DNA of 63,099 nt from Haloferax larsenii JCM 13917 (lineage in GTDB: Archaea > Halobacteriota > Halobacteria > Halobacteriales > Haloferacaceae), in NCBI RefSeq assembly GCF_000336955.1, contig NZ_AOLI01000021.1:125577-188675 (forward strand). Direction: 5' to 3'. Below the pieces are notes generated by a model, which saw only the letters and a program-made list of their open reading frames with translations, searched no databases and was not told the origin of the DNA. This document shows, piece after piece, positions 30,536 through 34,174 of this stretch. The translations under genes were made by a program, and so were the position numbers. Numbering within the stretch: position 1 is the stretch's first letter; the number at the start of each line of letters is the position of its first letter.

Positions 30536-33500
30536 GTGCGCGAAGAGGAAGAACGGTACTTCGGACGCATCGAAGGCCGACTCGACGAGGCGTTCGAAGT
30601 CGCACGCGCCGCAAAACAGCAGGGTCACGACCCGAAACGGGACGTCGAAATCCCGGTCGCCAAGGACATGGCCGACCGCGTCGAGAACATCCTCGGCATC
30701 GATGGCGTCGCCGAGCGCGTCCGCGAACTCGAAGGGGAGATGTCACGCGAGGAGGCCGCCCTCGAACTCGTGACCGACTTCGTCGACGGCAACGTCGGTG
30801 ACTACGACTCCCGCGAGGGAAAAGTCGAGGGCGCGGTTCGAACCGCCGTTGCCCTCCTCACCGAGGGTGTGGTCGCCGCACCAATCGAAGGTATCGACCG
30901 CGTCGAGATTCTCGAAAACGACGACGGCACCGAGTTCGTCAACGTCTACTACGCCGGGCCGATTCGCTCCGCGGGTGGGACCGCACAGGCGCTGTCGGTG
31001 CTCGTTGCCGACTACGCCCGGTCGCTTCTCGGCATCGACGAGTACAAGGGCCGAGACGACGAAATCGAGCGCTACGTCGAGGAAATAAATCTCTACGACA
31101 AGGAGACCGGTCTCCAGTACTCGCCGAAGGACAAGGAGACGCGCTTTATCGCCACGAACATGCCCATCATGCTCGACGGCGAGGCGACCGGCGACGAAGA
31201 AGTCTCTGGCTTCCGCGACCTCGAACGCGTCGATACCAACTCCGCACGCGGGGGTATGTGTCTCGTCATGGCCGAGGGTATCGCGCTCAAGGCCCCGAAG
31301 ATTCAGCGGTACACTCGTCAACTCGACGAAGTGGAGTGGCCGTGGCTTCAGGACCTCATCGACGGCACCATCGGCAAAGACGACGGGAAGAAAGACGAAA
31401 GCGAGGCCGAAGCCGAATCTGAGGCTGGCGACGCTGACGAAGACGACGCCGACGCTGCCGAAGCAGACGACGCTCACGACGAACCCGAAGGCCCACCTCG
31501 TGTCGAACCCGCAACCAAGTTCCTCCGCGACCTTATCGCCGGCCGGCCAGTCTTTGGCCACCCCTCCGCACCCGGTGGGTTCCGACTTCGCTACGGCCGC
31601 GCCCGAAACCACGGATTCGCGACGGCTGGCGTCCACCCGGCGACGATGCACATCGTAGACGACTTCATCGCCACCGGCACGCAGATTAAGACCGAACGGC
31701 CCGGGAAGGCCGGCGGTGTCGTCCCCGTCGACTCTATCGAGGGGCCGACAGTCAGACTCGCCAACGGCGACGTTCGCCGCATCGACGACCCCGAAGAGGC
31801 CGAGGAACTGCAAAACGGGGTCGAGAAAATCATCGACCTCGGCGAGTACCTCGTCAACTTCGGCGAGTTCGTCGAGAACAACCACCCGCTCGCACCCGCC
31901 TCCTACGTCTTCGAGTGGTGGATTCAGGACTTCGAAACGACCGACGCCAACGTACAGGCCCTCCGCGACGACCCGACTGTCTCACTCGACGACCCGACTG
32001 TCGAGGAGGCACTCGCCTGGGCCGAGCAGTACGACGCTCCGCTGCATCCGAAGTTCACCTACCTCTGGCACGACATCTCCGTCGAGCAGTACGACGCGCT
32101 CACCGATGTCGTCGCGGCGGGCGAGATTGTCGCCGCCGAAGCAGACGGTGGACAGCCGCGCGGCAGCCGAGCAGGTGGTGGCCGCGCCGACGGCGGCGGT
32201 ATCGCGGTCGAACCCGAAGACGGAAACGAGGGAACGCTCGTCGTCGAGAACACGCCCGAAATCCGCGAAACGCTCGAAAACCTGCTCGTCGAACACCGCC
32301 AGACCGACGAAGAGCTTCGGATTCCTATCTGGCGACCACTCGCTCGCTCGCTCGGCCTTGCTGACGACCGAGCGCGTACGTGGTCACTTGATGACCTTTC
32401 GGCGCGCGCCCGCGAATGGGAAGACGGCGACAACGCCGTCGAGGCGGTCAACGAAATCGCACCCTTCGAAGTCCGCGAGCGGGCACCGACCCGAATCGGC
32501 GGTCGGATGGGTCGCCCCGAGAAATCCGAACGCCGCGACCTCTCGCCCGCGGTTCACACGCTGTTCCCAATCGGCGAAGCGGGCGGGAGCCAACGCGACG
32601 TCGGCGACGCCGCTCGGAAATTCGGCGAGTCAGGCAAACGCGGCGAAGTCTCCGTCCGACTCGGGAAGCGAAAGTGCCCCGACTGCGGACAGTTCGGATT
32701 CAAACCGAAGTGTTCCAACTGCGGCGGCCACACGAAGCCTCACTACGAGTGCGACGACTGCGGCACGGTCATCCAGCCCGACGAATCGGGTCGCGTCTAC
32801 TGTGACCGCTGTGAGTGGGACGTCGAGAGCGCCGAGTGGCAGACTGTCGACCTGAACACCGAATATCGGGACGCGCTCGAATCGGTGGGTGAGCGCGAGT
32901 CGTCCTTCGAGATTCTCAAAGGCGTCAAGGGGCTCACCTCCTCGAACAAGACGCCCGAACCCATCGAGAAGGGTGTCCTCCGGGCGAAACACGACGTCTC
33001 GTCGTTCAAAGACGGGACCGTCCGCTACGACATGACCGACCTTCCGGTCACGGCGGTCCGGCCCGAGGAACTCGACGTGACGGCCGACCACTTCCGCGAA
33101 CTCGGCTACGAGACTGATATCGACGGCGAACCGCTCCGATTCGACGACCAACTGGTCGAACTCAAAGTCCAAGATATCGTCCTCTCGAAGGGTGCGGCGA
33201 AGCATATGATGCAGACCGCGAACTTCGTTGACGACCTCCTCGAACAGTTCTACGGGCTGGAACCGTTCTACAAGATGGACGAGCGCGACGACCTCATCGG
33301 CGAACTCGTCTTCGGGATGGCACCCCACACCTCCGCGGCGGTCGTCGGGAGAGTTGTTGGATTCACGACAGCAGCGGTCGGATATGCGCATCCGTACTTT
33401 CACGCCGCGAAACGCCGGAATTGCGATGGTGACGAAGACTGTGTGATGCTCCTTATGGACGGTCTTCTCAACTTCTCGAAAGAATTCCTCCCCGACAAAC

Positions 33501-34174
33501 GCGGCGGGCAGATGGACGCGCCGCTCGTGATGTCTTCGCGTATCGACCCCTCGGAAATCGACGACGAGGCGCACAACATGGACATCGTCCGGCAGTACCC
33601 ACGGGAGTTCTACGAGGCGACCCGGCGGATGGAAGACCCCGACGATTGGGAAGACGAAGTCACCATCGCCGAGGAGTACCTCGGCACCGACCGCGAGTAC
33701 ACTGGATTCGACCACACCCACGACACCACGGACATTGCCGCCGGGCCGGACCTCTCCGCGTACAAGACCCTCGGGTCGATGATGGACAAGATGGACGCTC
33801 AGTTGTTCCTCGCGCGAAAGCTCCGGGCGGTCGACGAGACCGACGTGGCCGAGCGCGTCATCGAGTATCACTTCCTGCCGGACCTCATCGGGAACCTCCG
33901 CGCGTTCTCCCGGCAGGAGACGCGCTGTCTCGACTGCGGCGAGAAGTACCGCCGGATGCCCTTGACCGGCGAGTGTCGCGAGTGCGGTGGCCGGGTGAAC
34001 CTCACCGTCCATCAGGGGTCTGTGAACAAGTACATGGACACCGCGATTCAGGTTGCAGAGGAGTTCGACTGCCGCGACTACACCAAACAGCGCCTCGAAG
34101 TGCTTGAAAAGAGCCTCGAATCCATCTTCGAGAACGACAAGAACAAACAGTCGGGTATTGCGGACTTCATGTAG
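30536..34174 (+). CDS. polC: DNA polymerase D large subunit DP2
   Basis: A 1212-residue catalytic subunit of the archaeal replicative polymerase PolD, with GTG start. The catalytic double-psi barrel motif NCDGDED is at 962-968, with D966 and D968 fitting the known catalytic aspartates. Zinc sites lie at about 713-765 (four CxxC pairs) and near 1130-1155 (CLDCGEKY...CRECGG). Residues 290-320 are a highly acidic insertion of E, D and A. The end QSGIADFM fits a PCNA-interacting (PIP) box. No intein is present, although NCDGDED is a known intein site in haloarchaeal polC. The gene's 3' end is duplicated downstream. Confidence 0.97.
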   Translation: MREEEERYFGRIEGRLDEAFEVARAAKQQGHDPKRDVEIPVAKDMADRVENILGIDGVAERVRELEGEMSREEAALELVTDFVDGNVGDYDSREGKVEGAVRTAVALLTEGVVAAPIEGIDRVEILENDDGTEFVNVYYAGPIRSAGGTAQALSVLVADYARSLLGIDEYKGRDDEIERYVEEINLYDKETGLQYSPKDKETRFIATNMPIMLDGEATGDEEVSGFRDLERVDTNSARGGMCLVMAEGIALKAPKIQRYTRQLDEVEWPWLQDLIDGTIGKDDGKKDESEAEAESEAGDADEDDADAAEADDAHDEPEGPPRVEPATKFLRDLIAGRPVFGHPSAPGGFRLRYGRARNHGFATAGVHPATMHIVDDFIATGTQIKTERPGKAGGVVPVDSIEGPTVRLANGDVRRIDDPEEAEELQNGVEKIIDLGEYLVNFGEFVENNHPLAPASYVFEWWIQDFETTDANVQALRDDPTVSLDDPTVEEALAWAEQYDAPLHPKFTYLWHDISVEQYDALTDVVAAGEIVAAEADGGQPRGSRAGGGRADGGGIAVEPEDGNEGTLVVENTPEIRETLENLLVEHRQTDEELRIPIWRPLARSLGLADDRARTWSLDDLSARAREWEDGDNAVEAVNEIAPFEVRERAPTRIGGRMGRPEKSERRDLSPAVHTLFPIGEAGGSQRDVGDAARKFGESGKRGEVSVRLGKRKCPDCGQFGFKPKCSNCGGHTKPHYECDDCGTVIQPDESGRVYCDRCEWDVESAEWQTVDLNTEYRDALESVGERESSFEILKGVKGLTSSNKTPEPIEKGVLRAKHDVSSFKDGTVRYDMTDLPVTAVRPEELDVTADHFRELGYETDIDGEPLRFDDQLVELKVQDIVLSKGAAKHMMQTANFVDDLLEQFYGLEPFYKMDERDDLIGELVFGMAPHTSAAVVGRVVGFTTAAVGYAHPYFHAAKRRNCDGDEDCVMLLMDGLLNFSKEFLPDKRGGQMDAPLVMSSRIDPSEIDDEAHNMDIVRQYPREFYEATRRMEDPDDWEDEVTIAEEYLGTDREYTGFDHTHDTTDIAAGPDLSAYKTLGSMMDKMDAQLFLARKLRAVDETDVAERVIEYHFLPDLIGNLRAFSRQETRCLDCGEKYRRMPLTGECRECGGRVNLTVHQGSVNKYMDTAIQVAEEFDCRDYTKQRLEVLEKSLESIFENDKNKQSGIADFM

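Follow-up and report, generated by a model that had tools for sequence, protein, structure and literature searches.

What is recorded by the atypical codons that surround an empty intein insertion point in a conserved polymerase gene? The question is raised by polC of Haloferax larsenii JCM 13917, located at 30536..34174 (+ strand) of the window, i.e., the whole stretch of 63,099 nucleotides analyzed here (NZ_AOLI01000021.1, positions 125,577 to 188,675). This open reading frame has orthologs across Halobacteria and across the phylum, and it encodes the large subunit (DP2) of DNA polymerase D, with 1212 aa and no intein. The catalytic motif NCDGDED (codons 962–968; 33419..33439, + strand) contains an empty insertion point, N962|C963, between 33421 and 33422 (+ strand), the position being taken from intein-bearing orthologs. 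This junction is the published pol-IIa allele of Halobacteria (Soucy et al. 2014, PMC4071816), which has the same insertion point and host gene and whose presence is widespread and patchy. A sequence-only reading of this DNA had noted unusual codons on both sides of the empty site, and had proposed that the region may have been co-converted during intein homing or replaced during intein loss.

Intein occupancy of the pol-IIa site

The comparative sample consists of polC from 76 high-GC3 Halobacteria, in which the pol-IIa site is empty in 36, holds a full intein in 25 and a mini-intein in 15. An intein is thus found at the exact N962|C963 junction in 40 of the 76 overall, and in nine of the 14 other Haloferax. 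C963, the +1 nucleophile for pol-IIa, is invariant (76/76). Among the 15 Haloferax sampled, the site is empty in the window, H. mucosum, H. denitrificans, H. profundi and two further genomes. The volcanii group carries an intein of 495 aa at this position, H. marinum a mini-intein of 181 aa, and H. elongans, the closest relative of the window polC in the sample, an intein of 508 aa with 65% identity to its nearest relatives in other genera. The H. elongans intein has LAGLIDADG-like motifs and belongs to a different family from that of the volcanii group. A rarer second intein position, pol-IIb (codons 991|992; 33506..33511, + strand), is also empty in the window; its +1 residue is Gln, which is no splicing nucleophile. 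The same genome harbors an MCM intein at AGL|T (523 aa) and a PolB intein at MN|SLYG (411 aa), which indicates that the lineage has been exposed to homing even though its polC site is empty.

Atypical codons around the empty site

Every one of the codons singled out in the sequence-only reading (GTT, GGA, ACA, GCA, TAT, CAT, GAT, GGT and CTT) is present around NCDGDED. In the window polC, GC3 is 0.52 over codons 938–962 and 0.66 over codons 963–991, compared with 0.79 for the whole gene. The dip in codon usage at the intein site was confirmed, although it is marginal within this gene by itself (lowest 40–50-codon window, permutation P = 0.037). The trough described below (codons 933–988) lies in the lowest 1% of the 56-codon windows of this gene. 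Two more low-GC3 segments, 31388–31507 and 32303–32422, fall outside the deep minima common across species; the former lies in an acidic, poorly conserved linker.

Across the 76 Halobacteria, a trough of atypical synonymous codons spans codons 933–988 (33332..33499, + strand) with the intein site at its center. When codon usage was adjusted for amino acids over well-covered columns, the three lowest 15-codon windows of polC were codons 938–952, 970–984 and 955–969, at −0.22 to −0.15 against a window standard deviation of 0.048. In 48 of the 76 species, no other window of polC is lower than the trough; by intein status, this holds for 26 of 36 empty alleles, 17 of 25 full alleles and 3 of 12 with a mini-intein only. 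Its floor is flat, with a log-likelihood deviation of about −0.35 in each of four 14-codon bins, and its edges are sharp, the deviation just outside being −0.05 and −0.04. No trough was found in 29 intein-free polC genes of other classes in the phylum; GC3 exceeds 0.6 in 12 of these genes. In other archaea of the phylum, pol-IIa inteins are present in about one-third, roughly half of them mini-inteins, and the empty alleles there are without the trough.

The codons inside the trough are both diversified and AT-shifted. At invariant residues of empty alleles, codon heterozygosity is 0.50, compared with 0.34 for the same amino acids elsewhere; codon sharing between genera is the lowest in polC; and within several genera synonymous divergence is elevated (e.g., 0.25 and 0.15 vs. 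0.10 in the volcanii group). The share of rare codons in the trough is 9.3% for empty, 7.1% for full and 4.8% for mini-intein alleles, compared with 2.2–2.5% elsewhere. The raw count of distinct codon haplotypes was uninformative as a statistic for the trough, since its values are almost as high in other conserved segments. Some unusual codons of the left flank (codons 949–955, 33380–33400 of the window) are kept across genera, namely CAT at H952 (59/76), TTT at F955 (48/76) and GGA at G949 (43/76).

Averaging of GC content by conversion between GC-rich and GC-poor species was also considered and was rejected: the flanks of Haloquadratum show no shift toward GC, and cross-genus codon sharing is lower than expected. 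The correlation between intein composition and flank composition was not significant (P = 0.086).

Flank divergence and phylogeny in Haloferax

The sequence-only reading was right that the pol-IIa position is empty, that its flanks are atypical and that the anomaly is linked to that position; the part that found no support is an event in this genome. Between the window and the intein-bearing H. elongans, the synonymous difference is 0.15 and 0.08 in the flank and 0.15 in the rest of the gene. In the phylogeny of the 15 Haloferax, the rest-of-gene tree was not rejected for the flank (AU P = 0.055), several control windows of polC were more discordant than the flank, and the window and H. elongans stay sisters in the flank tree. 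Excess flank identity at z ≥ 3, as a recent donor would produce, was observed in one of approximately 2990 cross-genus pairs, and the window is not in that pair. Given the ordinary divergence of the flank, the tree comparison and a donor search that returned no donor for the window, co-conversion or replacement in the window is not supported.

A local event, either co-conversion of the flank together with an intein or its replacement upon intein loss, would agree with the filled site of the sister H. elongans next to the empty site of the window. It is opposed by the lack of flank-specific excess divergence or tree conflict, and by the same codon pattern in most Haloferax, and we regard it as highly improbable. 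Most relatives have the trough with or without an intein, which largely matches the observation that the sequence-only reading had named as counting against its own proposal, namely a codon pattern common to all relatives with no recombination signal. The empty site of the window carries a codon pattern inherited in its Haloferax lineage. The core codons of H. elongans polC, which surround its intein, are nearly the same as those of the window.

Codon usage and intein status

A phylogenetic regression (PGLS) that covered 22 inferred gains and losses showed the core of the trough (codons 956–976; 33401..33463, + strand) to be more atypical in empty than in full alleles (difference 0.19, P = 0.008). 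It is also more atypical in empty than in mini-intein alleles (difference 0.21, P = 0.016). By the same method, full and empty alleles do not differ in the outer flanks of the trough, and no status effect was found in control segments of polC. Individual codons, in counts not corrected for the tree, follow the same direction: AGR at R960/R961 is found in 13 of the 36 empty alleles, in 2 of the 15 with a mini-intein and in none of the 25 full ones, and AAT at N962 in 23 of 36 empty vs. 8 of 40 filled alleles. The strongest contrasts within genera are those between empty and filled alleles. In Halorussus, where synonymous identity is 31% vs. 73%, empty alleles read AAA AGA AGA/AGG AAT TGT GAC GGA, and filled alleles read AAG/AAA CGC/CGT CGG/CGC AAC/AAT TGC GAC GGC. 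MCM and PolB show no difference by status, their filled alleles being just as atypical as the empty ones.

These comparisons bear on two explanations that involve inteins. The first is that homing copies a short flank together with the intein, that flanks exchanged between species become mixed and under-optimized, and that intein loss leaves such flanks behind in empty alleles. The GC3 of the flank resembles that of the inteins (0.69), filled MCM and PolB alleles are no less atypical than empty ones, and at pol-IIa the sharing of core codons is greater between two filled alleles than between two empty ones, all in favor of such hitch-hiking. Co-conversion of flanking markers in intron and intein homing likewise predicts unusual flanks at an insertion site; it predicts donor-derived flanks in filled alleles, however, whereas in polC, once the tree is taken into account, the empty alleles are the more atypical. 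A single cross-genus pair with excess flank identity at z ≥ 3 among about 2990, the agreement of the window flank with the species tree, the rarity of TTA and AGA in the sampled high-GC3 species and the narrowness of the dips at other sites (3–20 codons, below) also argue against hitch-hiking, and we consider it unlikely as the main cause.

The second explanation is that endonuclease cuts repaired without gain of an intein raise the local mutation rate, so that codon optimization is lost without any selection for escape. Synonymous divergence and rare codons are indeed raised around the cut site, and the effect is stronger in empty polC alleles. The sharp-edged plateau and the shared CAT and TTT codons are unlike random damage, though, and filled MCM and PolB alleles are affected equally; we rate break-induced mutagenesis as rather less probable than hitch-hiking.

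Other intein sites and control motifs

The exact insertion points in other genes were read from filled alleles, and 14 codons around each were compared with conserved null windows of the gene. No conserved null window is as low as the dips at MCM GTGK|S, AGL|T and EQQ|S, and the same applies to MN|SLYG and YGD|TDS in PolB. The NrdJ site ATNP|CGEQ is at the 0.7th percentile, and no dip was found at NrdJ 241 and 629. In RFC-S, after exclusion of the 5′ extension of the ORF, which is poorly conserved, the two lowest windows, both shallow, are found at the intein site LDEADSL|T and at the P-loop. Dips outside polC are 3–20 codons wide. Among 13 sites, with linked sites treated as independent, the dip is deeper where intein prevalence is higher (Spearman −0.71, P = 0.006).

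Catalytic motifs without inteins served as controls and were normal, with values of +0.07 at the RadA P-loop and +0.12 at RpoA1 NADFDGD; the interior of aEF-2 was likewise normal. MCM of non-halobacterial relatives shows weak dips (−0.05 to −0.07 at GTGK|S). The results for RadA, RpoA1 and aEF-2, together with the outgroup polC and MCM, led us to reject the idea that dips are common to conserved motifs in general.

A function of the codons unconnected with inteins was also weighed, in which non-optimal codons would slow translation or shape the mRNA at catalytic motifs, and inteins would target these motifs by coincidence. Consistent with such a function, each of the strong dips coincides with a conserved catalytic motif, and CAT, TTT and GGA of the polC left flank are conserved across genera. 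Comparable intein-free motifs (RadA P-loop, RpoA1 NADFDGD) are nonetheless normal, as is the same polC motif outside Halobacteria, and the depth of the dips follows intein prevalence and, in polC, intein status. We find a codon-level function improbable, slightly more so than break-induced mutagenesis.

The deep dips are at sites with an invariant C, S or T. Little or no dip was found where empty alleles often lack the nucleophile, i.e., at pol-IIb (Q/R/K), MCM-d (mostly P/A) and MCM 411 (mostly K/Q/S). At MCM-d, Pro in place of Ser in empty alleles is reported to block the intein (PMC10643990). The dip at PolB LDLK|SLYP, where Ser is invariant and prevalence is low, is shallow.

Proposed synonymous escape from homing

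The best explanation, to which we give about an even chance, is that synonymous recoding lets host alleles whose amino acids cannot change escape homing endonucleases. Mating and gene transfer would repeatedly bring the homing endonucleases of Halobacteria inteins to empty targets. At pol-IIa, MCM-a and similar sites, the residues would be fixed by their catalytic role, including the nucleophile that the intein itself needs; since the amino acids could not change, resistance would have to come from piling up synonymous changes in the DNA target. Such recoding would draw on codons that the genome otherwise avoids, with a constant protein and randomized rare codons as the outcome. An occupied site would be immune, and its codon usage may drift back, as in the mini-intein lineages of polC. 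The nucleophile exceptions are what is expected if recoding happens only where the protein cannot change.

Selection by homing endonucleases is the putative cause here of what was observed, that is, the location, specificity and diversification of the atypical codons and, in polC, their association with intein status. In polC, the atypical and diversified codons are restricted to the stretch that a mobile intein targets, as would be expected of an escape allele. Compared with the other explanations, escape best covers the location, the diversification, the trend with prevalence, the nucleophile exceptions and the status effect in polC. By itself, it does not explain how wide the polC trough is, the recurrence of CAT952, TTT955 and GGA949 across genera, the filled MCM and PolB alleles, or the trough-free alleles of other archaea. 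The main gap is the equality of empty and filled alleles in MCM and PolB. The polC trough, at about 165 bp, exceeds the footprint of a LAGLIDADG enzyme, its outer flanks do not differ between full and empty alleles, and some odd codons of the left flank are common across genera rather than randomized; these features count against escape, as does the lack of a dip at NrdJ 241 and 629. Homing endonucleases are reported to tolerate single synonymous changes (PMC3024317), hence escape would need several together; the MCM endonucleases of H. mediterranei cut H. volcanii targets with several synonymous changes (PMC10643990).

On a broader scale, a Halobacteria-wide arms race with inteins may be written in synonymous codons, with unchangeable sites recoded, changeable ones not, and recoding relaxed after permanent occupancy, a possibility that we hold somewhat more tentatively than escape itself. 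As proposed here for recoded polC alleles, some host alleles at MCM-d withstand invasion by the intein (PMC10643990); resistance there is conferred by Pro for Ser, which blocks splicing, whereas in polC the protein is unchanged and synonymous codons vary. Soucy et al. (2014, PMC4071816) map presence and absence, and the words “codon” and “flank” are absent from their text. In a search of open full text, no earlier description of unusual codons at intein sites came up.

In homing gene drives, synonymous recoding of the target gives resistance to the homing nuclease. Alleles resistant to gene drives are engineered or selected in the laboratory, whereas the polC pattern is natural and its cause putative; if escape is true, it would be a natural counterpart of recoding-based resistance, legible in genomes. 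The pattern touches on the questions of whether hosts resist inteins through changes in the target DNA and of how homing cycles end. A codon signature at target sites would make past exposure to homing readable from intein-free genomes, and the arms race would become testable in the genetically tractable Haloferax.

Two minor observations concern individual pol-IIa alleles. The polC of Halogranum rubrum has a one-sided trough, with GC3 of 0.28 in the left flank (codons 938–962) and 0.93 in the right flank. In nearly all pol-IIa inteins, the last residue before the +1 Cys is Gln and not the usual Asn, and two mini-inteins of Halomarina apparently have the C-terminal Asn.
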